A DNA stretch of 26,390 nucleotides, from IMG/VR virus record IMGVR_UViG_3300027721_000066, positions 1 to 26,390 of that record. The stretch is one strand, 5' to 3'. Below the pieces are notes generated by a model. The model was not told the DNA's origin, did not search any database, and worked only from the letters and a program-made list of their open reading frames with translations. Below are positions 4,285-26,390 of this stretch, piece by piece (the stretch's first letter is position 1; the number at the start of each line of letters is the position of its first letter). The position numbers and the translations under genes were made by a program. This DNA comes from a virus.

Positions 4285-6354
4285 TTACAACACCTCTTCT
4301 GCTGCTGGCGCTTGTTCTGACTCACCAGGCTGTTGTTTTGCTGCTTCTACTCCCTGTTCTGCTTGAAACTGTGCCTGTTGCATCTGGTCCATCAGCATTT
4401 TGTGTAGATCAGTATGAGCAATTAGTACTGTTTGTGCCTCTTGTTTCAAATCTTGGAACTGCGGGGAGAGAATAAAGTTCCTATGGGTCTCATAATGGAT
4501 CTTGTGGTTGTCAAACTTGAACAAAGGATCATCATTTACAACTACTAACTCACCAGTCTGTTGATTAGGCATAGCTAACATAATGCCTTGTATCTGACTT
4601 CCGTCTAATTTGTCATCTTTTACACTAAATTTTATCTTTTCGTGCTCTAATTCCGCCCTATTTGTATCTATAGATATAGTATTAGGTAAGTTTCCTAGTC
4701 CAATACGACGAAGAAGTTCTTGTCGTAGGGATGGATCTTGGGTCAAATCACCAAAGAAACCTTCCTTTGCTAGACTTATCATAGTCTGGGTTTGACCTGT
4801 CTTGGTAGATGATATACCAGTAGTCAATTCCAGCATTACATCATCGTTACCTCTTAAGTCTGACGACTTAAACATCTTCACATCAATAGCAGAAGCGTCA
4901 TTTACTATCTTCATAATCCTTTTTTCTGTGTATAGTTCTTCCGCCAGTAACAATCTCTTTCTATACACCCTCTTCAAAGAACGATAGAATCTTCTTATGT
5001 CTGGTGTGTGACCCCGCTCGGCTGCTTCTTGTAGCATATCCACCAATACACCAGAAGCGGCGGAACCAGGAATACCTCCCCTCAATACGTGGTTAGGATC
5101 TCCTGCCGCGTCCTGTGCGGTCTGTCTATGTATTTCTCTCTCCTTGATAAACTGTTCAGGTAGTGGAGTTCCACGATCAATCTTTGGGGGTTGTCCTCCT
5201 GAAGTCCTAGGATCGTACTTCACAGCCAAGAATGACAAACCTTGGTTACTTACTCTTTCCAGATTGACCGCTTCCTTACCCACAGGTATAAATAGTATAG
5301 GTCTACCAAATGATTTTCTATTTATAGCTACGGCTTGGTCTATCTCATTTATATTAGTTTGGGGGGAAATAAGATCGTTTATACCGCCTTCAGACCAGAA
5401 TCTACCAGGAATTTGTAGATATTGAAAGTCAGTTAGGGTATAATAGAACACACCATCTTTGGTAGGTATAGGTAATCTAGGAGAATCTAATAGTACAGTA
5501 TCATTAGTGGATACTATATATCTGCCTTCAGGATATTCTTTGGTTGGTTTGAACTCCAGCTCCTGAAACACGCATAGTTCAGAGTTGGGATCTAAATCAA
5601 TAGAAGAAGAACTACCTAATCCTATACCCTTCCAAGGACTTACATTAGCCACTAACTGCATAAGGCGTCTCTGATAGTTCAATTTCAAATCGGTGGAATC
5701 ACTATTTACTTTTGTTTTGAACGTGTCTTCTACCCATTCTGTGGACTTGAGGGACTTTATCCCGACCCATCTTTTATCGGTCAACTTGTCGCCAAACTGA
5801 TCTACTACTACATTGAAAGGTATTACACATTCAGACGCCACGTCACCGGTAGGTATGAGCTTACCATTACTATCTATACCATACTTACCTCTACTGATCA
5901 TAGGAAAGGTTCTCATAAAGGCAGTGCCGCAGATAACCATCCACAAGGCTACCTTATCTCTTTCATCTTTGAACTCCTCGTCGTAGTCCAAGTCCATAGA
6001 AGTAAGGAGTTGTTCTCCCAGGCGGGCTGCTTCCCTATCTTCCATACTGTTAGAGTTAGGATAGATCTTGATAGAGTATTCTTTATTTAGGATAAGCGCC
6101 TTCATAGAACGGACATAATCACGGAGGATGTTAGAAACCGGGGTGGGGGTGAAAGGGGAAATCTTACTTGACCTGCGGAAGGTCTTGGCTGTCTCATACC
6201 ACTCTATATACTGCTCTCCACAGTAGTATAAGATGTTACGAAACCACTCTCTTTCTAACATTTCCCTTGAAGGATTTATCACGCCGGGATTGAACACATC
6301 GCTCATAAAAGTGGTAATGTCTTTACCGTACATTGTTTTATCTTTTTTTGACAT
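4285..6354 (-). CDS. Portal protein (P22-like size)
   Basis: The protein has 689 residues, close to the ~725 of the P22 portal. It starts at ATG with AAGGA upstream. The N-terminal part has REWFRNILYYCGEQYIEWY, a helical region typical of portals, then PVSNILRDYVRSMKALIL and repeated polar segments of the stem/wing. The C-terminal ~40 residues are Gln/Ala/Glu-rich (QMQQAQFQAEQGVEAAKQQ), which fits the helical barrel. It would form the dodecameric DNA channel at one capsid vertex. It is separated from the terminase only by a small membrane-protein gene, and is followed at once by the 57-residue gene. Confidence 0.85.
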   Translation of the reverse strand: MSKKDKTMYGKDITTFMSDVFNPGVINPSREMLEREWFRNILYYCGEQYIEWYETAKTFRRSSKISPFTPTPVSNILRDYVRSMKALILNKEYSIKIYPNSNSMEDREAARLGEQLLTSMDLDYDEEFKDERDKVALWMVICGTAFMRTFPMISRGKYGIDSNGKLIPTGDVASECVIPFNVVVDQFGDKLTDKRWVGIKSLKSTEWVEDTFKTKVNSDSTDLKLNYQRRLMQLVANVSPWKGIGLGSSSSIDLDPNSELCVFQELEFKPTKEYPEGRYIVSTNDTVLLDSPRLPIPTKDGVFYYTLTDFQYLQIPGRFWSEGGINDLISPQTNINEIDQAVAINRKSFGRPILFIPVGKEAVNLERVSNQGLSFLAVKYDPRTSGGQPPKIDRGTPLPEQFIKEREIHRQTAQDAAGDPNHVLRGGIPGSAASGVLVDMLQEAAERGHTPDIRRFYRSLKRVYRKRLLLAEELYTEKRIMKIVNDASAIDVKMFKSSDLRGNDDVMLELTTGISSTKTGQTQTMISLAKEGFFGDLTQDPSLRQELLRRIGLGNLPNTISIDTNRAELEHEKIKFSVKDDKLDGSQIQGIMLAMPNQQTGELVVVNDDPLFKFDNHKIHYETHRNFILSPQFQDLKQEAQTVLIAHTDLHKMLMDQMQQAQFQAEQGVEAAKQQPGESEQAPAAEEVL

Positions 6355-6620: not shown

Positions 6621-8117
6621 CTAATCTCCTTCTAATATCTCCGTAAAGTATTCTTCTACTGCTTCTAATTCCAACTTACGGTCTTCCTCTATTTGTTCAT
6701 TCTGCGCTCGTTCTTCTTCCCAAGCTATTCTCGCTAGTGTGGGTAACTTCTCGTAGGTAGCTTGTCGCTCTCGCTCTTTGATTACTTTGTCTACATCTGT
6801 TTGAGAAATACCCACTGGGCGAGCCATCATAAGGTGGCATGCACTGTCAAAACAGTGATTTTCTGAAGTTACATCTATATACTCTATCTTGTTTTTATCT
6901 ACAGGTATTAGTGGTATAGTCCTAATAAAGTTCTTACAGTTCTCATACACCTGAAGCATAGGCTTCGTTTCTTTGTTCTCGGGAATAAAAAGTCTGGACC
7001 TAAATTGTCTTATCTTCAAATCCCTGCTAGGATCACCAGGAAGTAACTTAATATTGTATGTGTCAAATATGTCGGCAGTAGAAGGTCCTTGTCCACCACC
7101 TTTGTAATCTGGTTTCTTATTAAAGCAGTCAGGACCAGCTAGTCTTGTGATATCCTTATTAGTTATACCTAATGTTTTTTCTATCTCAATAATACCTCTA
7201 GCTATTTCTTCGTCCGTAAGCCGTAGTCCTACATTAGGTTCTCCGTTCCATCCATACCACTCATGAAAGTGAAACAATCTATCTTCGTGGTCTACATACC
7301 ACCATTGGGCGCTAAATGGATGCCCATACCCCCAATCAAAGCAGAAAAACAAAGGAGCAAATTCGGGTATAGGAATATCGGAAGGAACTACATGGTATTT
7401 CTTTTGAAAATCAAATGCTTGTCCACCTACAACATCGAATGAGCAGAAGAACTCTTGCTCTATCAAATCATCACTCATTCCTTGTTTTCGTTCATCTTCA
7501 ATAGCTGCCCTAGTAATAATGGGGGAACCGTCGTCTCTTACAGTATCGTCTATAGTAAGTAATTGAGCAAACCAATTAGGATCATCTTTAGCCATTTCAT
7601 ACAATCTTTTGCCATGATTCTGACCCCTCGGCGTGTAAATAAATATCGCCCAACCACCATTCTCCATAAGAATGGGTCTGAACAAATCCCATGCGTCAGG
7701 ATCTTGTAAAGCATACTCACTGAATACACAGCCTATTGGGTTTGTACCTACAACAGAGTTATAGTTGTCAGTACCTACTATTTGGAATAAGGAACCATTG
7801 ATAGTCCTTATTTTCATTTCAGTGTTATTTATCTCGCCGGCAATAAGTTCTTTAGGGAAATGGTCTATGAAACGCATACCTTCTTTGTTAGTGCCATCCC
7901 ATAGAATCTTACGACCTTGGGCGAAAGTAGGAAAAAAGTAATAGTAAGAACCTACTCTTTGGAACATCTTGGATATGGTAAGGTTCATTACTGTACTATC
8001 TTTCCCGGCGCGACGATGCCAGACTAACACAGCTCTCTTTATACCAGATTCTAACGCATTGAATACCTCACGCTGATAGGATCTAGGCTTGAATAGGTGA
8101 GGTAGAGTTATCTCCAT
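6621..8117 (-). CDS. terL: Terminase large subunit (packaging ATPase and nuclease)
   Basis: The protein has 498 residues. The ATPase Walker A is WHRRAGKD at residues 33-40, a hallmark of this terminase group. The Walker B region is VFSEYALQDPDAWD with acidic Glu134, and a coupling-type motif YTPRGQNHGK lies at about 161-170. The C-terminal RNase H-like nuclease begins at FCFDWGYGHP, with the first metal-binding Asp at 261; further acidic residues follow. It would cut the concatemer and power DNA entry through the portal. The start overlaps the small-subunit-like gene by 35 bases. It ends in TAG, with the next gene starting two bases on, which shows TAG is a normal stop here. Confidence 0.95.
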   Translation of the reverse strand: MEITLPHLFKPRSYQREVFNALESGIKRAVLVWHRRAGKDSTVMNLTISKMFQRVGSYYYFFPTFAQGRKILWDGTNKEGMRFIDHFPKELIAGEINNTEMKIRTINGSLFQIVGTDNYNSVVGTNPIGCVFSEYALQDPDAWDLFRPILMENGGWAIFIYTPRGQNHGKRLYEMAKDDPNWFAQLLTIDDTVRDDGSPIITRAAIEDERKQGMSDDLIEQEFFCSFDVVGGQAFDFQKKYHVVPSDIPIPEFAPLFFCFDWGYGHPFSAQWWYVDHEDRLFHFHEWYGWNGEPNVGLRLTDEEIARGIIEIEKTLGITNKDITRLAGPDCFNKKPDYKGGGQGPSTADIFDTYNIKLLPGDPSRDLKIRQFRSRLFIPENKETKPMLQVYENCKNFIRTIPLIPVDKNKIEYIDVTSENHCFDSACHLMMARPVGISQTDVDKVIKERERQATYEKLPTLARIAWEEERAQNEQIEEDRKLELEAVEEYFTEILEGD

Positions 8118-8397
8118 CCTGTTTATCCTTATATGATACTATAGTAACATGTAGCTTACCATCAGAAGTAATGTCCTCGCTTATTGATTGGTGACATTTA
8201 CCAAGTGATCTATCCATCAAAATCTCTGCTGCTTTCATACGGTTTTGGGCACTATACTTTGTACTGGTAGCTATCTTATATAACTCATCTATTAGAACTT
8301 TGAAGTCATCTCCTACCTTTGTTCTTATATATCTACCTATATCTGCTGATATAGATTTCTTTGTCGCTGCTTTATTTCCCTTCTCAAATTTAGGCAC
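8083..8397 (-). CDS. Terminase small subunit-like DNA-binding protein (GTG start)
   Basis: The protein has 104 residues and starts at GTG at 8397, nine bases after GGAG. It opens with a basic segment (MPKFEKGNKAATKKS) like the start of many small terminase or packaging DNA-recognition proteins, followed by helices including KYSAQNRMKAAEILMDRSLGK, typical of a helical pac-binding domain. It overlaps the large-subunit start by 35 bases and the preceding HNH gene by 8 bases, so it is tightly coupled. The family assignment rests on position and the N-terminal pattern. Confidence 0.7.
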   Translation of the reverse strand: MPKFEKGNKAATKKSISADIGRYIRTKVGDDFKVLIDELYKIATSTKYSAQNRMKAAEILMDRSLGKCHQSISEDITSDGKLHVTIVSYKDKQDGDNSTSPIQA

Positions 8398-9103
8398 TGG
8401 CTTGTTCTCCGTTTAGTTTCGTATTCATTAGGCTTTTGTATAGTAAAATATGTTTATCTCTATCATAATTAGCTAATATATTACAATAGTTACATAGTGT
8501 AATACAATTATCCAATCTACAATTCTTTTTATCATAATCTATATGATGTATAGCTAATCCACGATTATGTACTTTATGACTTAATAATCTTGTAATTCCA
8601 CAGTTTTGACACTGATGGTGGTCTCTTTCAAATATCATAGCTCTAAATTCTTTATCTTTGAATATCCTACAATATGGATTTTTACTTAAGCCACCTAACC
8701 AAGAAGGATTTTTAGGACCACATTGTAATGACATTATTTCAGGTTGTAGACAACCACAACTTCTGGTATTACCAGTTACTAAACTTAATGAGGGTATTGT
8801 CTTCTCATTACCACATTCGCATTTACATAACCATAAGGCTGCTCTGTGCTTATTCTTTCCTACCCGCCGCAAAACCGTCAATCTACCATAAATATTATTA
8901 GTAAGATCAGTACTATGTATGTTCCTAACTCTTGAGCAACCACATGTTGTAGAATTGCCTGATCTCAAGGACACACCACTCACTGGAACTTCCTTACCAC
9001 AGACGCATCTACATAACCAATGAACTTCACCTCTGTTATTCGTGTGGTCTCTTTCTATAACTGTTAGATCACCATACACATTACCTAATTCGTTTTTTAT
9101 CAT
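8390..9103 (-). CDS. HNH homing endonuclease with two zinc-finger repeats
   Basis: The protein has 237 residues. Two N-terminal repeats of the pattern YGxLTVxxR ... WxCxCxCG ... SxxxGxxxxCGC lie at about residues 9-60 and 70-120; each carries four cysteines, a DNA-binding module seen in many phage homing endonucleases. The HNH nuclease follows: CQNCG, then LAIHHIDYDKKNC with the double His, and LCNYCN, so both zinc-binding Cys pairs and the catalytic His are intact. It is inserted immediately upstream of the small terminase gene and overlaps it by 8 bases. It is free-standing; no intron core is evident around it. The upstream ribosome binding site is weak. Confidence 0.85.
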   Translation of the reverse strand: MIKNELGNVYGDLTVIERDHTNNRGEVHWLCRCVCGKEVPVSGVSLRSGNSTTCGCSRVRNIHSTDLTNNIYGRLTVLRRVGKNKHRAALWLCKCECGNEKTIPSLSLVTGNTRSCGCLQPEIMSLQCGPKNPSWLGGLSKNPYCRIFKDKEFRAMIFERDHHQCQNCGITRLLSHKVHNRGLAIHHIDYDKKNCRLDNCITLCNYCNILANYDRDKHILLYKSLMNTKLNGEQASA

Positions 9104-10012: not shown

Positions 10013-10483
10013 CTATATAAGGTTAAATAATGTTTTGTATAAATTCTTTTTGGCTTTGTCTAATAACATATGATGTTGTTTATCTCTACATAATGTAAGT
10101 ATATCTATAAAGTTACTGGATCTACTTCCCCAGTGATGAACTTGCTCTCCCTTTGTAAGTTTTCTACCAATACTTTTTTCTACCATAGCTACATGTAATC
10201 TCTGTTGAAAGCTTGGCTCACCACAGACAGGATTAGGTATTATTACAGATACATACCCATTTTTTGTACTGACAGTGCCACATTTAGATAGATCTGTATT
10301 AATAAGTATTTCTATAGGGGCTCCACATTTATGTATTTTACGGACACCTTCAGAGATTTTTTGTTTAGTTTCAGTAGTGTGGGTGGTTCCTAATCTACTT
10401 TCCTTTATCTTGTTCCTGGATTTTTTTGAAAGTCTGTGTCCTTTAGGTCTACCTATTCCTAATCTTTCACTATACCTATTCAT
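10013..10483 (-). CDS. NUMOD3/HNH homing endonuclease
   Basis: The protein has 156 residues and starts at ATG after AAGGAG. The N-terminal ~50 residues are basic with NUMOD3-like helices (GIGRPKGHRLSKKSRNKIKES, then TTHTTETKQKISEGVRK), a DNA-minor-groove-binding module. The C-terminal half has LHVAMVEKSIGRKLTKGEQV followed by HHWGSRSSN and RDKQHHMLL, the HNH pattern of the phage family without structural zinc cysteines. It is the first gene of the minus-strand block, directly behind a conserved promoter, and lies next to the hairpin-rich region. It is probably a selfish endonuclease. Confidence 0.8.
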   Translation of the reverse strand: MNRYSERLGIGRPKGHRLSKKSRNKIKESRLGTTHTTETKQKISEGVRKIHKCGAPIEILINTDLSKCGTVSTKNGYVSVIIPNPVCGEPSFQQRLHVAMVEKSIGRKLTKGEQVHHWGSRSSNFIDILTLCRDKQHHMLLDKAKKNLYKTLFNLI

Positions 10484-14154: not shown

Positions 14155-15201
14155 TCAGTTCACTATCTTATTTACATAGTCCATATACTTCTTGGATGCC
14201 TCTTTCAAATCATCCTCACTTGTAATCAGATATCTAGAAAAGATAGTAGCAGTTTTATGACCCAATATTGTTTGAGCAACTTTTTGTGTTACTCCTGACT
14301 TGATCAAGTTTCTAGCCGCTGACCTTCTCATATCGTGCGGTATGGTTCCATCTAGCCCCACCTTCTCACAGGCAGTCTTCCAAGCGGTTCTGAAATCCTT
14401 TATCCTGCCGGTGTTAGTCCTGTTTAGAAACACATAAGGAATGGTTATCTTGTTGTGCTCCTTCCAGGTGTGCGCCTTCTTAAATAAATCCAACAGTTCC
14501 TCATTGATAATGAACACCCTGCCTTCGTCATTCTTCGACAGTTCGGGCGGTAGAACAATCCTTTTGTCGTCCAAGAATACCATAGACCATTCCAATTGAA
14601 GCACCTCTTGTATCCGCCAGCCACTGTAATATAGTAACATAACAGGGAATATCAGATGATCAGGTAGTTCATCACATAGTTCAAAGAACTTGTCAGGCTC
14701 AATGAATCCTTGTCTTGGTCTACCTTCCTTAAGCATCTGTATGTAAGGTTTGGTGGGTATCCTGTTTCTCTTGTGTAGTAGTGAGTACCCCCGCCTGATA
14801 ATAGCTAATTCTCTATTCACAGTGGCATTCTTCGCTTTGTCAATGTTCACTCTATAACTTGCGTAGTCCATCCAATCTTGTGAAGTGAACTTGATCAGCG
14901 GGAGTTTGGAATTAGTGTGCTTGACTATCCATTTGATTGAGTACTCTATCCTATCTATACTCCTCCTGCCATTCAGAATGTAATCTTCCTTTACCACATT
15001 GATCAGATCCTTAAGGGTAATGTCTTCAGCGCCAGGAATGCCTTGAGCCTCTAACAGGATGCGTAATTTGTTAGTGGCTACCTGATCTGCTACCCTCTTG
15101 TTGCTGGTTTTGGCACTCTCCCTGTGTAGTTTTCCTTGGTTGTCGAACCACTTGATCTGGTAGTACTTCGAATTTTCTCTTTTGTAGACCTTGACTTCCA
15201 T
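14155..15201 (-). CDS. int: Tyrosine recombinase (phage integrase)
   Basis: The protein has 348 residues from ATG 15201, chosen because GGAGGG lies 6 bases upstream; a longer frame to 15234 has no such site. Residues ~1-55 form an arm-binding-type N-terminal domain, ~60-160 the core-binding SAM-like domain, and 165-345 the catalytic domain. All catalytic residues are present: Arg196 (GWRIQE), Lys223 (beta-hairpin LSKNDEG), His289 and Arg292 (HDMRR), His315 (GHK) and the nucleophile Tyr324 (FSRY). It would integrate and, with a helper, excise the phage. The candidate attP lies about 110 bases upstream of its start. It indicates a temperate lifestyle. Confidence 0.95.
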   Translation of the reverse strand: MEVKVYKRENSKYYQIKWFDNQGKLHRESAKTSNKRVADQVATNKLRILLEAQGIPGAEDITLKDLINVVKEDYILNGRRSIDRIEYSIKWIVKHTNSKLPLIKFTSQDWMDYASYRVNIDKAKNATVNRELAIIRRGYSLLHKRNRIPTKPYIQMLKEGRPRQGFIEPDKFFELCDELPDHLIFPVMLLYYSGWRIQEVLQLEWSMVFLDDKRIVLPPELSKNDEGRVFIINEELLDLFKKAHTWKEHNKITIPYVFLNRTNTGRIKDFRTAWKTACEKVGLDGTIPHDMRRSAARNLIKSGVTQKVAQTILGHKTATIFSRYLITSEDDLKEASKKYMDYVNKIVN

Positions 15202-15225
15202 AAATTTCCCTCCGTTGGCACAATT

Positions 15226-15254
15226 ATGATACATTTTTTATGCCGGAAAGTCCA
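15226..15254 (-). promoter_or_regulatory. Candidate integrase promoter
   Basis: On the minus strand TGGACT (15254-15249), 17 bases, TATCAT (15231-15226) lies about 25 bases before the integrase start codon. It resembles a sigma-70-type promoter and sits next to the left att arm repeat, so integrase binding could repress it. Confidence 0.5.
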
Positions 15255-15270
15255 GTGTGGATTAATTTTC

Positions 15271-15298
15271 TTGACTTTTAGATGGAGATCAGTAGGAT
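15271..15298 (+). promoter_or_regulatory. Promoter placed to transcribe the tRNA-Leu 5' half
   Basis: TTGACT (15271-15276), 16 bases, TAGGAT (15293-15298) on the plus strand, nine bases before the first base of the tRNA fragment. The spacing is what a tRNA promoter would need. After integration it would drive the rebuilt host tRNA gene. Confidence 0.55.
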
Positions 15299-15307
15299 AG
15301 ATGGCGT

Positions 15308-15348
15308 GCGAGAGTGGCGGAACTGGCAGACGCGCTGGACTTAGGATC
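15308..15348 (+). other. Candidate attP core: 5' half of a tRNA-Leu (anticodon UAG) gene
   Basis: The 41 bases match a class II tRNA-Leu from base 1 to just past the anticodon: acceptor strand GCGAGAG, then TGGCGGAA, D-loop GG, GACGCG, anticodon-stem strand CTGGA and loop CTTAGGA with anticodon TAG. The other stem strand should read TCCAG but the sequence is TCAAC, so homology stops at 15348. No variable arm, T-loop or acceptor 3' strand follows, and no matching 3' half was found in the window. Next to a tyrosine integrase gene this is best read as the attachment site, with strand exchange in the anticodon loop. Confidence 0.75.
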
Positions 15349-15468
15349 AACCATGTGATTTTATTACGAATTTTTCACCTCTTTTCTACTAATCTAACCA
15401 AATCTTCCTAATTAATCCTGCCAATAAGACACACTCCCTGAACATTGATTAAACACACTTTTGACACA

Positions 15469-15517: not shown

Positions 15518-15943
15518 CTACTCAACGAGGGTGATAGTGAAGGACTTCCCATCTTCGGAGATCTGACCTTTGCACTTCTTACCTATCCATTCAGTAATCT
15601 CCACATTCTTTCCTGTCTTGTCGTCCTTTTCGAACTTGCCTGTTGCTTTTCTGTACCCCCGCCAGGCTTCAGGAAACTGACCAATAGGAATAGCCAAGGT
15701 TTTTTCGCCCACAGTCCATGTGTCCCCACCCATCTTGATCTTCATTCCCTCAACAGCGGGGAGATCAGTGTTGTAGGACACCTTGATTATTGCGTTTCTC
15801 AAACGGGTGTCATCATTGTCGGTCAACTTCATCTCTTCCTTGATTTGACTGAAGGTTTTCTTCGCCGCAATGAGCCCCTTCAACACCTTCTTGTTGATTG
15901 GATCTGCCTTTTCCTTCTTCTCTACCTTCGATGCTGGTGCCAT
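15518..15943 (-). CDS. Small basic protein, unknown; possible regulator
   Basis: The protein has 141 residues from ATG 15943, chosen because AAAGGAGG lies 9 bases upstream; longer in-frame starts up to 16054 fall in the leader. Residues 1-25 are a lysine-rich tail (MAPASKVEKKEKADPINKK). Residues ~28-65 are helical (LKGLIAAKKTFSQIKEEMKL ... RLRNAII), possibly helix-turn-helix. The rest is a beta-rich domain with GDTWTVGEK and a C-terminal hairpin. Standing alone between att and the glycosylation operon, it could be a lysogeny or accessory factor. No family is recognised. Confidence 0.55.
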   Translation of the reverse strand: MAPASKVEKKEKADPINKKVLKGLIAAKKTFSQIKEEMKLTDNDDTRLRNAIIKVSYNTDLPAVEGMKIKMGGDTWTVGEKTLAIPIGQFPEAWRGYRKATGKFEKDDKTGKNVEITEWIGKKCKGQISEDGKSFTITLVE

Positions 15944-16045
15944 GGTATTCTTGCCTCCTTTGTTTAGTAAGCGGTTGATCTCCTCATCCGGTATATTGGT
16001 GAAAAAAGATGTCTGGAGCATACACACTCCCCTCACTCTATCGGT

Positions 16046-16074
16046 AGGGTACAACAGAAACTTGAATAAGTCAA
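16046..16074 (-). promoter_or_regulatory. Candidate promoter of the small basic gene
   Basis: On the minus strand TTGACT (16074-16069), 17 bases, TACCCT (16051-16046). The -35 matches five of six consensus bases; the -10 is weak. It would give a leader of about 95 bases. Confidence 0.4.
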
Positions 16075-16212: not shown

Positions 16213-16317
16213 ATGAGTGAATACACACAGCGCACCGAATGGCAGAAGGCTGCTAAACGGATCGGAATAAAAGGGATACTTACTAAAAAATGTGCATATG
16301 TAAAGGAGGAGTTATGA
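16213..16317 (+). CDS. 34-residue leader peptide coupled to the glycosyltransferase
   Basis: The ORF from ATG 16213 gives MSEYTQRTEWQKAAKRIGIK and 14 more residues, and its stop overlaps the next start as ATGA. It has no obvious ribosome binding site, but the exact stop-start overlap suggests translational coupling. It may be a true small protein or a leader. Confidence 0.4.
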   Translation: MSEYTQRTEWQKAAKRIGIKGILTKKCAYVKEEL

Positions 16318-17141
16318 TCTATTTATCGGCGGAGGTAATAAGTGGTCTTGGAGAGGACACCTTTTGGACTTGGTTCAATAGGGAATTTCCAAACAGCAAG
16401 TTCGGATTACCCACCAGTCCAAGTAAGGGAGATGTAATTTTACAATATTCTACCCTCGGTAAACCTAAATTTCCTGAAATAACCGTAGGTTTGCTATGGG
16501 AATTACATCCGGAAATGAAAAAGAAACTAAAATCAGATCAATGGAATAGTGTGTTGGACAGGATACATTTGTGTGCTTCCACTTGTAGATGGAGAACCAC
16601 ACCGAGTAGTTTGATGGTGCCTTACTATGAGAAGTTCGGTAAGCTGGACATCATTCCTATAGGCGTGAACACGGATTTGTTTAGACCCATAGACACTGTT
16701 TCTATGAGAAAGAAGTGGAATATTCCTTTGGACAGACGAGTGGGATTTTGGGGCGGGACTATACACTCAATGAAGGGCTTCGATAACTTGTTGAAGTATA
16801 AGGAGAACAACCCAGACATTTATTGGATTGTGGTTTGGAAACAGAAAGGAGAAGATGGTTATTTGGAAGGGGCTTCTAACTTTGTTCATGTCCGACAGGA
16901 TCAATTAGCAGAACTTATGAACTGTGCCGACTTCTATCTATCCTGTGGATTGCTGTCTCCATTCTTTATGGTAGAGTGGGAAGCCATGGCTTGTGATTTA
17001 CCTGTGGTTATTTTCGAGGGGGAAAAGGACTTTGTGCCTAGTGATCACCCCCGCGACGACATTTTCAGATTGGGTTGGGACAGAAAGACGGCGAAGGAAA
17101 CTTGGAGAAAATACTTGGAGGATATAATGAATGAAACTTAA
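16314..17141 (+). CDS. GT-B fold glycosyltransferase (family 4-like)
   Basis: The protein has 275 residues from ATG 16314, chosen because AAAGGAGGAG precedes it. Residues 114-125 read IPIGVNTDLFRP, the typical linker motif of GT4 enzymes; GFWGGTIHSMKGF at 144-156 begins the C-terminal nucleotide-sugar-binding domain; and PFFMVEWEAMACDLPVVIFE at 216-235 is the conserved donor-binding acidic motif region. At 275 residues it is shorter than usual (~350), with a reduced N-terminal domain. It would transfer a sugar from a nucleotide donor. It overlaps the methyltransferase gene by 11 bases. Confidence 0.85.
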   Translation: MIYLSAEVISGLGEDTFWTWFNREFPNSKFGLPTSPSKGDVILQYSTLGKPKFPEITVGLLWELHPEMKKKLKSDQWNSVLDRIHLCASTCRWRTTPSSLMVPYYEKFGKLDIIPIGVNTDLFRPIDTVSMRKKWNIPLDRRVGFWGGTIHSMKGFDNLLKYKENNPDIYWIVVWKQKGEDGYLEGASNFVHVRQDQLAELMNCADFYLSCGLLSPFFMVEWEAMACDLPVVIFEGEKDFVPSDHPRDDIFRLGWDRKTAKETWRKYLEDIMNET

Positions 17142-17562
17142 CATAGGCTGCGGTCCTTACAAAGAAGCAGGTGCAGTGAACATAGACAAGAATCCTATAT
17201 GGGAACCTGAACTAACATTGGATGTAAGAAAAGGATTACCTTATGAAGACAATTCCGTGGGTGAGATAAAAGCCTGGCATTTCATAGAACACTTGGATAA
17301 GGATGAGATCATATCGTTTCTGGCTGAGTGTTACAGGGTGCTGAAAATCCACGGAAAGTTAGATTTGTTGTTTCCTATAGGAGTTACTTACGACTTGGAT
17401 CATAAATCTTATTTGAACAAAACCAGTTTCGAGTTGATCGGTCGAGGCGGGAAGGACGAATATTATTACGGACCGAAGATTGCGTTTGACATAAAGTATG
17501 AAAAGACACAGCAAGATACACATTGTGATATGTTAAGATTAATACTGGAGGTGAAGAAATAA
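17131..17562 (+). CDS. SAM-dependent methyltransferase
   Basis: The protein has 143 residues, ATG behind GGAGG. Motif I is LNIGCGPYK at residues 3-11, and the acidic end of strand 2 is NIDKNP at 17-22. AWHFIEHLDKDE at about 48-59 is the motif typical of class I methyltransferases of the type 11 group that act in sugar and lipid modification. It is short, lacking C-terminal strands. Its place between two glycosyltransferases suggests it methylates the sugar being added. It overlaps both neighbours (11 bases and 1 base). Confidence 0.8.
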   Translation: MKLNIGCGPYKEAGAVNIDKNPIWEPELTLDVRKGLPYEDNSVGEIKAWHFIEHLDKDEIISFLAECYRVLKIHGKLDLLFPIGVTYDLDHKSYLNKTSFELIGRGGKDEYYYGPKIAFDIKYEKTQQDTHCDMLRLILEVKK

Positions 17563-18305
17563 TGATATCAATAGTATCGCTTATTTACAAATCAACTATT
17601 TATGCAGACAGCGTGTATGATTCCGTAATGGAGAACACACCTTTGGTGAAGGAGGGCAAGGCGGAGTTCTTCTTCGTCGCCAACGATGCCACTGAAAAGG
17701 TAATAAACCATTTAGATACAAAAGGTTATACCTATTACATAAACAATAACCCTAGCCTTACGGAAGAGGAGTTGTTCGCAAAAGGAATAGCCTATCCTGA
17801 ATACATACACAGAGTTTATCGAGGGTGGAATGTAGCCATAGAGAAAGCCAAAGACATAGTGGTATTGGTCAATAGTGATAATGTGTTCGCTCCCAACTGG
17901 TTGGAGAATCTGTTGAAGTATGCCAGAGAAGACAGGGTGGTCTGTTCTCAATTGTTCGAGAGGAACCATCCCAAGCATGGAGTGTTCCCAGGAGCAATCA
18001 GTTTGGACTGCGGTAGTAGTCCTGCTACCTTTGACAAGGACAAGTTTCTGTATCATTGTGAAAGGTCTTCTATCGACGCGCTGAAAAAGGGAGGCGCTTA
18101 TATGCCTTGCTTGTTCTACAAAAAGATTACTGAAAAGGCAGGTGTGTATCCGGAAGGGAATTTGGCGGGGAATTCATACAAACATATAATCCGTCATGGT
18201 GACGAGGACTTTTTCCTACGCCTGAAAAACACTGGCGTTGAACATTTCACAGTGTTATCTAGCCATTCGTACCATTTCAAAGAGGGTGAGATGGAAGAAC
18301 TTTAG
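17562..18305 (+). CDS. GT-A fold glycosyltransferase (family 2-like)
   Basis: The protein has 247 residues, start codon sharing one base with the previous stop (TAATG). It opens MISIVSLIYKS, the first strand of GT2 enzymes. VVLVNSDNVFAPNWLENLL at about 100-118 carries the DxD-equivalent (N104-S-D106-N), which binds the metal and nucleotide sugar, and HGDEDFFLRLKNTG near residue 215 gives the catalytic-region acidic pair (usual ED motif). With the two genes before it, it could glycosylate a virion component or host surface. A strong terminator follows. Confidence 0.85.
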   Translation: MISIVSLIYKSTIYADSVYDSVMENTPLVKEGKAEFFFVANDATEKVINHLDTKGYTYYINNNPSLTEEELFAKGIAYPEYIHRVYRGWNVAIEKAKDIVVLVNSDNVFAPNWLENLLKYAREDRVVCSQLFERNHPKHGVFPGAISLDCGSSPATFDKDKFLYHCERSSIDALKKGGAYMPCLFYKKITEKAGVYPEGNLAGNSYKHIIRHGDEDFFLRLKNTGVEHFTVLSSHSYHFKEGEMEEL

Positions 18306-18787: not shown

Positions 18788-19830
18788 TATGCTAATCCTC
18801 CGTGACAATTAGAGGTGCCTGCCAATCCAAATCTTTCTAATGTTAAATCTCCAAAGTCAGTGGAATTTCCAGTGGATGCTATAGTCACATATTCAATAAT
18901 ATTCAAAACTAAACTACCAGCCGTGGTGTAACCACCTCCAAAAGTAGCCCTTGTCAGATTGGCACTTCCAGATAACCAGGATCTAACAGCGGTTAGGTCT
19001 CCAAAGTCAGCGGCATTTCCAGTAGAAGCAATGGTTATGTAATCAATTATGTTGGTATAAGACCCGCCATGCCCACCTCCAAACACACCTCTAGTATCAT
19101 TACTAGATCCACCATTTCTTGTTTTATTCTGACTTGTCAAATCTCCAAAATCAGCAGCGTTTCCAGTGGAAGCAATTGTTATATATTCTATCTCATTGAG
19201 ATGAATAGTTCCAGCTGTTCTATAACCTCCAGCAAACACCCCCCTAGTTGTAGATGCGCATGTACCAGGACTTTCCCTTGAAGTTATTAGATCACCGAAA
19301 TCGGTTGAGTTACCAGTAGTAGCTATGGTTACATAATGAATGGTATTCACACTGGCGGTGCTAACATTTCCAAGAGCGAATACACCTCTTGTGTCAGAAG
19401 CCAAACCAGCAGTTCCATAGGCTGCGGAAAGAAGATCACCAAAGTCAGATCCATTTGAAGGGGTATCTATAGTTATGTATTCAATTACATTAGTTGCTGT
19501 GCCACCAGCATCTCCGCCGGCGAACACGCCTCTAGTAGCGGAAGCGCATGCCCCAGGAGTATATTTGTTCTGTGTAAGATCACCAAAGTCAGCTGAATTT
19601 CCAGTAGTAGAAATAGTAAAGTAATCTATAGTATTCTTGTAAACACCACCAACTATACCACCACCAAAAATTCCTCTGTCTCCACGAGCAGACCACCACT
19701 GTTTCCACACATCTCCAACATTCACATAACCAACAGAAATACTTTTCCATTGATCTGCGATGTTAATCTGAACATTCGATATGCTTTTCCAACTATCAGC
19801 AATATTAATCTTATTGTCTTCGTTAGCCAT
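18787..19830 (-). CDS. Tail fibre-tip protein with six propeller-like repeats
   Basis: The protein has 347 residues, ATG behind AAGGAGG. Residues 3-40 hold three short units of the form INIADxWKSIS, ending WKQWW. From ~52 on, a repeat of about 47 residues recurs six times: (T)RGVFxGG, then NxIxYxTIxxTGNxxDFGDL. The chain ends with GLAGTSNCHGGLA, which resembles half a repeat, and the first unit begins RGDRGIFGGG, so the ends could close a six-bladed propeller. Similar repeats occur in phage fibre proteins. Receptor or sugar binding is inferred. Confidence 0.75.
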   Translation of the reverse strand: MANEDNKINIADSWKSISNVQINIADQWKSISVGYVNVGDVWKQWWSARGDRGIFGGGIVGGVYKNTIDYFTISTTGNSADFGDLTQNKYTPGACASATRGVFAGGDAGGTATNVIEYITIDTPSNGSDFGDLLSAAYGTAGLASDTRGVFALGNVSTASVNTIHYVTIATTGNSTDFGDLITSRESPGTCASTTRGVFAGGYRTAGTIHLNEIEYITIASTGNAADFGDLTSQNKTRNGGSSNDTRGVFGGGHGGSYTNIIDYITIASTGNAADFGDLTAVRSWLSGSANLTRATFGGGYTTAGSLVLNIIEYVTIASTGNSTDFGDLTLERFGLAGTSNCHGGLA

Positions 19831-19840
19831 ATTGACCTCC

Positions 19841-22800
19841 TTAAGCCGTGTACTTAATGTATAAACAACCTATGGTTACACCACTGGCTACGGGAGGGTC
19901 TCCGGTTCCGTAGATAACATTGACAACTTGTTCTGTAGTTCCAGCACCATGATCACCGGTGTAGATGGGACCAGTTCCAGAAATTGTGTCTGCGCCAAAA
20001 AGAATGTCATTACCATTAGTGTCTAAATTTCCACCCAATTGAGGAGTTGTGTCGTCAACCAAAGCAGCTATACCAGAAGTAGTTGAGGCGAGAGAAACCC
20101 AACCATCATTCACATATCCTTCATAGGCTGTTCCAGTGAATCTAATAGTACCAGAAGCAGTGGTTGCTGTTGTTCCGATTAATATAGCCCCGCCGACATT
20201 GAGAGTTTGAGTTAGAGTGGTTGTGTTAATACCTAACTTGTCTGTAGCAAAGTTTCCATAGATAAGTGGTATATCGTTTAGTCCGTATGCACCTCTGTTC
20301 TCTATCTGTAATTGATCATCGTAGTTGATTGAACTAGTGTTTATGTCCCTTCTTCCAATGATAACATTTCTAGAACCAGTTACAAGTGTATCACCAGCAA
20401 CACCACCTATTACTATATTGAAACTTCCAGATAACATTTCAGAGCCAGCTTCAGCACCAATGATTGTATTGTATGTAGCATTATCGAGTAGCCCGCCAGT
20501 ACTCATTCCGATAACAGTGTTGTAATCACCTGTTGTAAGAGAAGTAATCGCGGTTGCACCAATAACAGTATTACCCGTTCCAGTACCATTTGCTAATGCG
20601 GCTGTACCAACTGCTGTATTTGATGATGCGGTTATTACTTTAGCTCCTGCCGCCCCTCCAACAAATACATTCCAATCTCCAGTAGTAAGATCATTACCAG
20701 CACTCTCACCAAGAAGAACATTACTGTTTCCTCCTGATTGTAAAGCAGCGCCAGCGCCAACACCACCTACGAGATTATTAGTACCGGTGCCATAATCATG
20801 TAGCACAGCACGACTGATAATGTTGCCACTAATGGTAGCCATTTCTGAACTGTCAATGTAATTAGTAGAAACATAGGATAGAATATCACCTGAAATAGTA
20901 GTAACTTCAGCCTCTGTGTAATATCTACCATCATGATCACTGCTAGTTTTATGAGTGTCCAGCTTGGTATTTATAGAGCCAGAGATGGTGTCTACTTCCG
21001 ACTCGGTATAGTATCTAGAATCGTGGTCAGAACTGGATTTATGAGTATCTAGTTTAGTGTTTATTGCCCCGGAAATAACATCAACTTCACTTTCTGTATA
21101 ATACCTACCATCATGGTCAGCACTACTTTTATGTGTTGTCAACTGGCTGATTATGTCACCACTGATTGTAGATACTTCCGCATCTGTAATGAAATCAGAC
21201 ACATCAGGTATCTGTGCCACTATATCTCCACTAACCGTAGTTACATAAGCTTCCGTTGCGTATCCTACCAGACTAGGAATTTGACTGACAATGTCTCCTG
21301 ACGCAGTGGTTAGTTCAGCGCTGGTGACGTAATCTACTGGTATTTGAGCAACTATATCCCCACTGATAGTGGTAATCTGTGCCTGGGTGTAATATCTAGC
21401 GTCCCCCCTGGTATCGTTGTGATATTGAGGATGATCGTCAGCACTTAAGTTAGTCAAGTTACTATGACTTGAGGTAACAGATGCAGTGAAGGCAGTTCCA
21501 AAAGCAGATTGAACTGCGACAGGCGCGTCTACCCCTTGTTTGATTACCACTCTTCCAATAAGAATACCATTGTTGGCGATATGAACTGGTAGATTAGAAG
21601 GAGCTCCTACCAACTGCGCTTCAGCAGCGGAGTTGTATTGCGCCTGTGGATAGATGATAGAAATTTCTGAGTCATCTGCCTCTGCGTATACCCATACATT
21701 ACAAAATTTATTATTGTCAATTGTTTGTAATGTAGTTTGAGTAACATCATTCCATTGTGTCACGGAATATTGAGTTAAATCAGAATCCTGCCAACCTTCA
21801 CCAGCTTTATACCAATAAGCTTCGACAGTTCCAGTTACACTTGTATCTAAAGCACTGATAGGAAACTCGTTTAGATTAGACCATAAAGTTCCAGCAGTTA
21901 CAGCAATGTTCCTGGTGCCTGGGACAGATAACATCAGCCCGCCAACACTTTCGTCTCTCATTACTCGACCACTGATAGCATTCAATCTCTCTGTGACATT
22001 TGTAATAGCATCGCCAGTCCACCAAGGATTGCTAATAACATGTAAAGTTTGGGTTCCGTTTAAGCTTTCTGTTATAGCCCGCCCTAAAGGAAATTCAGAA
22101 TCAAAGTTCCAGTTGTAAGAAGTCCTAGAGACAACTTGTGGAGTGCCTCCATTATATTCAACCCCGATGTATCTGATAGAAGAATCAGGAATTACAATGG
22201 CATTGTTAGCCGACCAATTCATCATATACAATTCACCAGTATCAGAATCTACCGCTCTGATGAAACCAGTCCCAGCTGCTACAGCAATAGTGGTTCCACT
22301 TACTACAGTTATTTCTCCACCTGAAACTCTACCTGGAGATTGAGATAGTTTGAACCAGTCTCTTGAAGTGGTATAGGTAGCAGAACCAAGGTAAGGTAGT
22401 TTTAGTAAGTCACCTGAAATGGTAGTCATTTCGGTGTTGTCTATGTAGTTGGAGCTTACATAAGAGAGGATGTCCCCGGATGTGGTAGTCAATAAAGTAT
22501 CTACCTCACCTGTAGTATAAACATCCGTAGGTATCTGGCTCACGATGTCCCCACTGATCGTAACCATCTCCGCCTCGGAAATGTAATCAATTGGAATTTG
22601 AGAAACGATGTCGCCAGAAATTGTTGTCATTTCTGAATCTGAAATGTAGTCAACAGGGATTTGAGCGACTATATCACCACTAGTTGTAGTCAAATTGACT
22701 GTGCTTGCAAAACCAGTATGACCAGAACTATCATAAGCGAGGTTCGTTAACAAACTGTGGTCGTTTGTACCTGACGAAGATATTTGTGCTATGATGTCTC

Positions 22801-23908
22801 CAGAGATTACTGTCATTTCTGCATCGGAAATGTAGTCAACTGGTATTTGTGCTATTATATCTCCCGAGACAGTGGTTACATATAACTCCGTAGCATACCC
22901 AGCTAAACTAGGCATCTGTGCAACAATGTCTCCAGAAGTCGTTGTTAGTTCCGCGCTTGTAACATAGTCAACGGGAATTTGACTGATAATATCTCCCGAT
23001 ATAACAGTCATCTCACTGTCTGAAATGTAGTCGGTCGGAATCTGTGACACGATATCACCACTAACAGTGGTAACATAACTCTCCGTGGCATATCCTGACA
23101 ATGAAGGTATTTGAGCTACTATATCACCAGAAGCTGTCGTTAGTTCGGCGCTAGTAATATAATCGACTGGTATTTGTGCTACTATATCACCACTAACCGT
23201 AGTAACATATGATTCTGTAGCATATCCAGAAAGACTAGGAATTTGGCTTACTATATCTCCTGATGTAGTAGTAAGCTCTCCGCTAGTAATATAATCTACA
23301 GGTATTTGAGCTATAATGTCCCCGGATATAACTGTCATTTCCGAATCAGAAATATAGTCAGTAGGTATTTGTGACACAATATCTCCAGATACGGTAGTAA
23401 GCAAAGTGCTACTTACAAATCCAGTGTGTCCAGAAGCGGCGTAACTTAAATTGGATAATTCAGCATGATCAGTGGTTCCAGTACCGCTTGCAGAGGAAAA
23501 CTCTAATCCATCTTCAGTTATGTTGACTTTGATATACTTATTGGCAGACCCATCATAAGTAGAGGGTGTGTCAGATAAAGATAGGAACGAGCCTCCGCCT
23601 ATCTGTGATACAATATCTCCAGACACTGTGGTAAGGAAAGTATCACTTACAAACCCAGTATGCCCTGCGCTGGCGTACTCCAAGTTATTCAAAGCACTAT
23701 GATCTGTTGTGCCTGAAGCGGAAGCTATTGCTACGTCCACATAATCTTTTGTGGTTAAATGACCAGCTACTGTAGGAGTAACACCACTTATTGTAGTAGA
23801 AACTAAAAGATCAGACCCATCCCAATAGATAGACGAATCATCACTGTCTCCGAAAAAGATCTTTTTATTATCCTTCAATTTCACATTTTGTTGTTTGAAC
23901 TTTGCCAT
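19841..23908 (-). CDS. Large repetitive tail fibre
   Basis: The protein has 1355 residues. Residues 1-60 hold a short N-terminal domain (FFGDSDDSSIYWDGSDLLV). From ~60 to 500 and again ~850-1010, short units recur, such as VTTVSGDIVAQIPVDYISDSEM and SLSGYATESYV, with DHSxLxNLxYxxxGHTGF spacers. The middle (~510-830) is a globular beta-rich domain. A stretch at ~860 has DDHPQYHNDTRGDARYYT, a common fibre motif. From ~1040 to 1190, NTVIG / NVLLGxxAG units match the left-handed beta-roll of trimeric adhesin heads. It is followed by DKLGINTTTLTQTLNVGG and a C-terminal tip. Probably a trimer that recognises the host surface. Confidence 0.9.
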   Translation of the reverse strand: MAKFKQQNVKLKDNKKIFFGDSDDSSIYWDGSDLLVSTTISGVTPTVAGHLTTKDYVDVAIASASGTTDHSALNNLEYASAGHTGFVSDTFLTTVSGDIVSQIGGGSFLSLSDTPSTYDGSANKYIKVNITEDGLEFSSASGTGTTDHAELSNLSYAASGHTGFVSSTLLTTVSGDIVSQIPTDYISDSEMTVISGDIIAQIPVDYITSGELTTTSGDIVSQIPSLSGYATESYVTTVSGDIVAQIPVDYITSAELTTASGDIVAQIPSLSGYATESYVTTVSGDIVSQIPTDYISDSEMTVISGDIISQIPVDYVTSAELTTTSGDIVAQMPSLAGYATELYVTTVSGDIIAQIPVDYISDAEMTVISGDIIAQISSSGTNDHSLLTNLAYDSSGHTGFASTVNLTTTSGDIVAQIPVDYISDSEMTTISGDIVSQIPIDYISEAEMVTISGDIVSQIPTDVYTTGEVDTLLTTTSGDILSYVSSNYIDNTEMTTISGDLLKLPYLGSATYTTSRDWFKLSQSPGRVSGGEITVVSGTTIAVAAGTGFIRAVDSDTGELYMMNWSANNAIVIPDSSIRYIGVEYNGGTPQVVSRTSYNWNFDSEFPLGRAITESLNGTQTLHVISNPWWTGDAITNVTERLNAISGRVMRDESVGGLMLSVPGTRNIAVTAGTLWSNLNEFPISALDTSVTGTVEAYWYKAGEGWQDSDLTQYSVTQWNDVTQTTLQTIDNNKFCNVWVYAEADDSEISIIYPQAQYNSAAEAQLVGAPSNLPVHIANNGILIGRVVIKQGVDAPVAVQSAFGTAFTASVTSSHSNLTNLSADDHPQYHNDTRGDARYYTQAQITTISGDIVAQIPVDYVTSAELTTASGDIVSQIPSLVGYATEAYVTTVSGDIVAQIPDVSDFITDAEVSTISGDIISQLTTHKSSADHDGRYYTESEVDVISGAINTKLDTHKSSSDHDSRYYTESEVDTISGSINTKLDTHKTSSDHDGRYYTEAEVTTISGDILSYVSTNYIDSSEMATISGNIISRAVLHDYGTGTNNLVGGVGAGAALQSGGNSNVLLGESAGNDLTTGDWNVFVGGAAGAKVITASSNTAVGTAALANGTGTGNTVIGATAITSLTTGDYNTVIGMSTGGLLDNATYNTIIGAEAGSEMLSGSFNIVIGGVAGDTLVTGSRNVIIGRRDINTSSINYDDQLQIENRGAYGLNDIPLIYGNFATDKLGINTTTLTQTLNVGGAILIGTTATTASGTIRFTGTAYEGYVNDGWVSLASTTSGIAALVDDTTPQLGGNLDTNGNDILFGADTISGTGPIYTGDHGAGTTEQVVNVIYGTGDPPVASGVTIGCLYIKYTA

Positions 23909-25869: not shown

Positions 25870-26390
25870 TTATGCAGGTGTGTAAGCCGTAATCAATCCA
25901 TCAGCTACTGTCATACTTCCAGATACAGTAGGAATAGTTCCTGTGTACCCAGTAATCTGCGCCACTATATCCCCAGAGATTGTCGTCATTTCACTATCCG
26001 AAATGTAATCCGTAGGAATCTGAGCTACCAAGTCGCCGGAGATTGTAGTCATAGCAGCTGTTGAAATATAATCAGCTGGGATTTGTGCTACAATATCTCC
26101 AGAGATGGTCGTCATCTCTGCGTCCGAAACATAGTCAACGGGAATTTGTGCTACAATGTCTCCAGAAGCTGTTGTAAGCTGTATAGTTGTTGCGTAACCT
26201 GAAAGCGACGGAATCTGACCAACGATATCCCCAGATATTGTAGTCATTTCAGAATCAGAAACATAATCAACTGGAATCTGAGCTATAATATCTCCTGATA
26301 TAGTTGAAACTTCAGCATCAGTTGCATACCCAGCCAGTGAAGGAATCTGACCAACTATATCACCACTGATTGTGGTCATGCTCGCGGTCG
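25870..26390 (-). CDS. Repetitive tail fibre, N-terminal part outside the window
   Basis: At least 173 residues, open through the right edge; the ATG at 26379 is internal, because the codons before it (Thr-Ala-Ser) continue the repeat pattern. The protein is made of the same units as the 1355-residue fibre, such as MTTISGDIVAQIPVDYVSDS and SLAGYATDAEV, ending in a short tip TGTIPTVSGSMTVADGLITAY. It is a second fibre of the same design, one gene upstream of the 72-residue gene. Confidence 0.8.
   Translation of the reverse strand, partial: TASMTTISGDIVGQIPSLAGYATDAEVSTISGDIIAQIPVDYVSDSEMTTISGDIVGQIPSLSGYATTIQLTTASGDIVAQIPVDYVSDAEMTTISGDIVAQIPADYISTAAMTTISGDLVAQIPTDYISDSEMTTISGDIVAQITGYTGTIPTVSGSMTVADGLITAYTPA

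Follow-up and report, generated by a model that had tools for sequence, protein, structure and literature searches.

A probable phage attachment site with the 5' half of tRNA-Leu(UAG) and a promoter-like sequence beside a tyrosine integrase gene

The phage record and its integrase region

The window, by which is meant the whole stretch of DNA that was analysed, is a complete linear entry of 26,390 bases in IMG/VR. Terminal repeats were sought in this record and none were found. Its gene content includes a terminase, a P22-like portal, a major head protein (capsid), an integrase and tail-type proteins. The terminase, portal, capsid and integrase genes lie to the left of the putative attachment (att) site and the tail-type genes to its right, and both termini of the record fall within phage genes, which makes the att site internal. 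This gene order fits a circular or concatemeric form that was opened elsewhere, as for unintegrated DNA. The GC content is uniform, at about 40%, on either side of the junction at 15308-15348.

Several other genes were noted in the record. Weak matches to HNH endonucleases and to NUMOD3 are found among the phage genes at 8390-9103 and 10013-10483, and suggest putative homing-endonuclease-like genes. On the P' side, two weak glycosyltransferase-like genes and a methyltransferase gene occupy 16290-18305 (+ strand) next to the att site, which is a usual spot for cargo such as surface-modification genes. The tail-type proteins encoded at 19841-23908 and 25870-26390 contain many SGDIVSQIP-type repeats, and the record ends inside the second of them. 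Structural relatives of the phage (L129-L133) have head genes in common with it, but not the integrase region. A search of 396 Nitrospirota genomes for relatives of the capsid protein, conducted without a positive control, returned none, and on that basis no lysogen of the phage was found.

The integrase gene (Table 1) is divergent from the tRNA half described below, with the N-terminus of the protein towards the attachment site. Its true start is probably the ATG at 15201, behind GGAGGG at 15208-15213; 106 nt separate this codon from the tRNA half, which lies outside the integrase gene. The initial annotation placed an intact tyrosine integrase gene next to the site, and both the Pfam match and the retention of the tyrosine-recombinase residues bear this out. 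When the window integrase is aligned with a sister integrase, both open with MxVxVYKR, and the R, K, HxxR, GH and Y residues are conserved. Identity to the integrases of annotated phages is only about 25%, and peptide-pattern searches of IMG/VR detected no relatives of the window integrase or of its sister from genome G605.

The window as a whole contains four occurrences of the motif T[AT]A..CACACT, and three of these lie inside 15254-15459, where they flank the core on both sides as candidate arm-type sites; the motif was picked after the repeats had been seen, so these counts are supportive only.

Table 1. Features in and around the putative attachment site of the window.
Feature	Position	Strand	Basis
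Tyrosine integrase gene	14155..15234	-	Pfam PF00589 E 6e-22; PHROG integrase E 8e-43
Candidate P-arm integrase site, TAATCCACACT	15254..15264	-	Inverted repeat across core
Promoter-like TTGACT-16-TAGGAT, placed to transcribe restored tRNA	15271..15298	+	Consensus scan
tRNA-Leu(UAG) 5' half, nt 1-41, putative attP/attB identity region	15308..15348	+	Exact genomic matches; hybrid tRNAs
Anticodon loop CTTAGGA, probable 7-bp crossover (overlap) region	15340..15346	+	Identity end; G196 overlap
Candidate P'-arm integrase site, TAAGACACACT	15425..15435	+	Repeat analysis
Candidate P'-arm integrase site, TTAAACACACT	15449..15459	+	Repeat analysis

The tRNA half and its upstream sequence

The stretch at 15308-15348 (GCGAGAGTGGCGGAACTGGCAGACGCGCTGGACTTAGGATC) agrees at every base with nt 1-41 of tRNA-Leu(UAG), and chance is excluded as the source of an identity of this length. 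As first annotated, the match extends from base 1 to just past the anticodon, and it ends 2 nt beyond the anticodon loop. The same 41-mer is present at at least 119 genomic loci (exact scan, one genome per species). The matches listed include many Nitrospirota, and also Deltaproteobacteria, Planctomycetes, Rokubacteria and others; because the 41-mer is spread over several phyla, the tRNA sequence alone names no host. Among the matches listed, all loci with downstream sequence run on as tRNA (ATC, then CAGT or CAGA), whereas the window follows the common ATC with AACCATG.

ARAGORN called no tRNA in the window, and Rfam reported nothing there at gathering thresholds, nor in 15280-15420 when run permissively. 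The tRNA 3' half is absent after the core at 15348 and a complete tRNA is absent from the window, so the earlier statement that the site carries the 5' and not the 3' half stands. The exact 41-mer found no match in IMG/VR. When the window up to 15348 was joined in silico to genomic tRNA-Leu 3' halves, as in attR, a tRNA-Leu(tag) was called in five out of five hybrids, and the reciprocal junction (attL) gave no tRNA call.

A 38-base 5' part of tRNA-Leu is present in 60 of the 396 Nitrospirota genomes, only four of which have two copies, and in three of these four a displaced half accounts for the second copy. The target tRNA-Leu(UAG) gene is apparently single-copy, and would be expected to be essential. 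Since the target looks single-copy, a phage that severed it from its promoter would have to replace that promoter.

A sigma-70-like promoter had been annotated nine bases before the tRNA match. The position of this sequence, TTGACT-16-TAGGAT, holds, while its strength is weak: it has nine of 12 consensus matches, a score equalled at the same relative place by about 4% of random window positions and reached by about 5% of shuffles of the site's own 60 bases. The match is well placed and only modestly above chance. The spacing from the -35 element to the tRNA resembles that of host tRNA-Leu promoters. The possibility that the site was recently copied from a host promoter was considered and rejected, as the upstream sequence of the window does not fit the genomic tRNA-Leu weight matrix.

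A degenerate version of the tRNA-Leu(UAG) 5'-half pattern was found in 20 viral contigs, of which all except two (L260 and L265) have complete tRNAs. In L260, the stop codon of an integrase gene is followed within a few bases by the 5' half, with more open frames beyond, and this is an apparent second phage attP carrying a 5' half. The provirus record L265 contains a 39-nt tRNA-Leu(UAG) 5' half at 436-474, with the same sequence as in the window, and an integrase directly after it, with its C-terminus towards the half.

Chromosomal elements and sister integrases

At least six Nitrospirota elements feature exact displaced 5' halves of 39-42 nt (G357, G194, G153, G049, G141 and G196). On contig 67 of G357, position 1400 has a promoter and tRNA nt 1-39, and position 7547 a complete tRNA-Leu preceded by another promoter-like region, with the integrase ending just ahead of the complete tRNA. 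The exact copies in the other genomes (nt 1-42 in G194, 1-41 in G153, 1-40 in G049, 1-41 in G141 and 1-39 in G196) lie 9-15 kb off on the integrase side, and divergence begins just past the anticodon loop. In G196 (L250/L252), displaced pieces flank a single tRNA-Arg(CCT) gene, a 5' piece to one side of it and a 3' piece (nt 33-77) to the other, and these overlap only at nt 33-39, which is the anticodon loop. In G228 and G148, the 5' half and the complete tRNA sit on separate contigs.

Two further loci were noted. In L066, a promoter-like region and 30 nt of tRNA-Leu are found at 2893, 1.4 kb upstream of a complete tRNA at 4297; the 30-nt piece is perhaps a remnant of a 5'-displacing element. 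In L058, a tRNA-Leu(UAG) gene is flanked by a different integrase on each side; the contig is titled Archaeoglobi, yet the tRNA and the integrases are Nitrospirota-like, and it may be misbinned.

Matches to the window integrase at E<=1e-30 were detected in 54 of the 396 Nitrospirota genomes, and the close relatives in this Nitrospirota-based set mostly target tRNA-Leu genes, from the 3' side. Among 74 tRNA-adjacent integrases in the gathered loci, a set that also takes in tRNA-Leu loci of other phyla and weaker matches, the C-terminus is towards the tRNA 3' end in 58 and towards the 5' end in 16. On a tree of the integrase relatives, at least four changes are needed to account for the 5' or 3' side label, and the side has therefore switched more than once.

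A much closer integrase was found in G605, from a second phylum, and the integrase of G794 was found via the relatives of the G605 protein. The window, G605 and G794 integrases form a clade with support of 100/99, in which the sisters are about 42% identical to the window integrase. In G794 (L300), a host promoter (TTGACA-18-TATAAT) and a displaced tRNA-Leu(CAA) nt 1-39 at 7788-7826 are followed by the integrase, and a complete tRNA-Leu(CAA) with identical nt 1-39 is found 11.07 kb beyond, at 18861-18946. A sister integrase has here integrated its element with displacement of the 5' half. The integrase of G605 (L288) has its N-terminus towards a tRNA-Leu 3' half that lies beside host genes, which implies that the G605 element displaces the 3' half; its far end was sought and not found. 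Homology between the small proteins adjacent to the att sites of the window (15518-16054) and L300 (18138-18584) was not supported. The N-terminus of the window integrase faces the restoring half, while the Nitrospirota 5'-side cases have the C-terminus towards the tRNA.

There are thus three layouts in one small integrase clade, and the tRNA half that is carried has changed within it, as judged from three elements, one of which is incomplete. The evidence leans towards repeated switching, within this clade, of the tRNA half that is carried and of the side of the core on which it lies, with 5'-displacing, promoter-bringing elements being recurrent and not rare. The proposed cause of such switching is that the anticodon stem-loop is near-palindromic.

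Proposed integration and known systems

The region 15254-15459 and its flanks are best read, with a probability of about 0.88, as the attP of a temperate tailed phage that integrates into a host tRNA-Leu(UAG) gene, its tyrosine integrase recombining within the anticodon loop, and that carries the 5' half and a promoter-like sequence on its integrase-side arm. The stretch at 15308-15348 is assigned to attP because the surrounding record is that of a phage, an intact tyrosine integrase gene is adjacent and arm-like repeats lie on both sides, and the window integrase presumably acts there. Two observations that count against this reading are the capsid search that brought up no lysogen and the integrase orientation, which differs from that of the Nitrospirota 5'-side cases. 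Crossover would fall within the anticodon loop of the host gene, probably exactly so. The phage upstream sequence and 5' half would join the host 3' half to give a complete tRNA gene beside the integrase, and the host's own promoter and 5' half would be left behind at the far end, fused to phage DNA. The phage promoter-like site would then drive the restored tRNA. An integration outcome of this kind had been predicted in the initial annotation, and a restored tRNA and a stranded host promoter with its 5' half are indeed seen in G794 and in Nitrospirota chromosomes; the tRNA may also come under prophage control, as that annotation claimed, but a replacement that is constitutive and leaves the tRNA functional is the simpler reading.

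It is fairly probable that the sequence at 15271-15298 functions as a promoter. At the 16 loci where an integrase faces the tRNA 5' end, the upstream promoter score has a mean of 8.9/12, compared with 6.7 for shuffled sequence, which supports the idea that elements of this kind bring promoters. The restored tRNA of G794 has a sigma-70-like score of 6/12 and no good site, and a recognisable promoter is therefore not always present. A tentative alternative, which is distinctly the less favoured, is that the 5'-half attP is genuine and that the restored tRNA is transcribed otherwise, from another phage promoter, by readthrough or from a promoter type that the consensus misses. Such transcription would agree with a match near noise level at 15271-15298, with the case of G794 and with the mere few bases between integrase stop and 5' half in L260, and the integrase promoter reportedly drives expression of the pTN3-type tRNAs of archaea (PMC8371274). 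However, the match lies exactly where a tRNA promoter belongs, the 5'-side loci are enriched for promoter-like upstream sequence, and the divergent orientation of the window integrase excludes co-transcription of the tRNA with it.

It is very improbable that the contig is a chimera formed via the 41-nt repeat, or a tandem-prophage junction, and not the attP of one phage. A repeat of 41 nt is able to bridge assemblies, and integrases on both sides of one tRNA do occur (L058 and G196), but the GC content is uniform over the junction and phage genes lie on either side of it. A false join of attR on the left to attL on the right would rebuild attP, and in tandem prophages the left element would still have the 5' half, so that the claim for 15234-15348 survives in both cases. 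The least likely reading is that the fragment is no integration site and is either a remnant of capture or a tRNA-half gene that serves another purpose: tRNA genes are indeed found in tailed phages (18 of the 20 viral matches to the degenerate pattern are complete), but this fragment ends at the anticodon loop as chromosomal att duplications do, and it lies beside an integrase and is flanked by arm-like repeats. The analysis brought up none of the observations that the initial annotation had named as contradicting it, namely a complete tRNA-Leu or its 3' half at this site in related genomes, an integration site elsewhere, or a misassembled join of host and phage DNA.

If the attP reading is correct, the phage would supply the promoter and 5' half of an apparently single-copy tRNA, and a needed host gene would become dependent on prophage DNA. 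The sister integrases are a natural comparison set for how the displaced half switches. Tools that seek only 3' fragments would miss 5'-half elements, and 16 of the 74 tRNA-adjacent relatives are on the 5' side.

By the usual rule, it is the 3' end of a tRNA gene that an integrating element restores, so that the gene retains its own promoter. The conventional 3'-half integrases among the Nitrospirota relatives belong to the same family as the window integrase and use the same tRNA genes, mostly tRNA-Leu among the close relatives, and the anticodon-loop region is also used in at least one case (G196). They differ in that they carry the tRNA 3' half and the host promoter and 5' half stay put, whereas the window carries no 3' half. 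Bacterial elements with reversed gene displacement were reportedly described by Zhao and Williams in J Bacteriol in 2002, and by Williams in NAR in the same year. As in such elements, the 5' part of the host tRNA would be displaced here and the element would supply a 5' part; what differs here is that the site is the attP of a phage and that the half displaced varies between the sister integrases.

The 5'-half arrangement was presented as a surprise in the initial annotation, but it had already been described for archaeal pTN3 and in rare bacterial cases (PMC5495485, PMC8371274). Bacterial tRNAs restored by integration retain their original promoter with very few exceptions, and a 5'-half situation is 'seldomly encountered in bacteria', for which the review cites Williams 2002 (PMC8371274). 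In Thermococcus nautili pTN3, a 41-bp stretch in tRNA-Leu is common to attP and attB (PMC5495485). The window resembles pTN3 and its relatives in the use of 41 bp of a tRNA-Leu 5' half that includes the anticodon, and in the expected separation of the tRNA from its original promoter (PMC5495485; PMC8371274). In the pTN3-type elements, the att site lies within the integrase gene and integration splits this gene, whereas the integrase of the window is separate and divergent. Expression of the tRNA from the integrase promoter is described for these archaeal integrases (PMC8371274). The tRNA of the window is bacterial.

The window attP thus belongs to a known, rare kind, of which it is a well-supported case. 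What is new is a phage attP of the 5'-half kind with a dedicated divergent promoter-like region, together with sister elements that differ in the displaced half, and a count suggesting that 5' displacement is less rare in the Nitrospirota.
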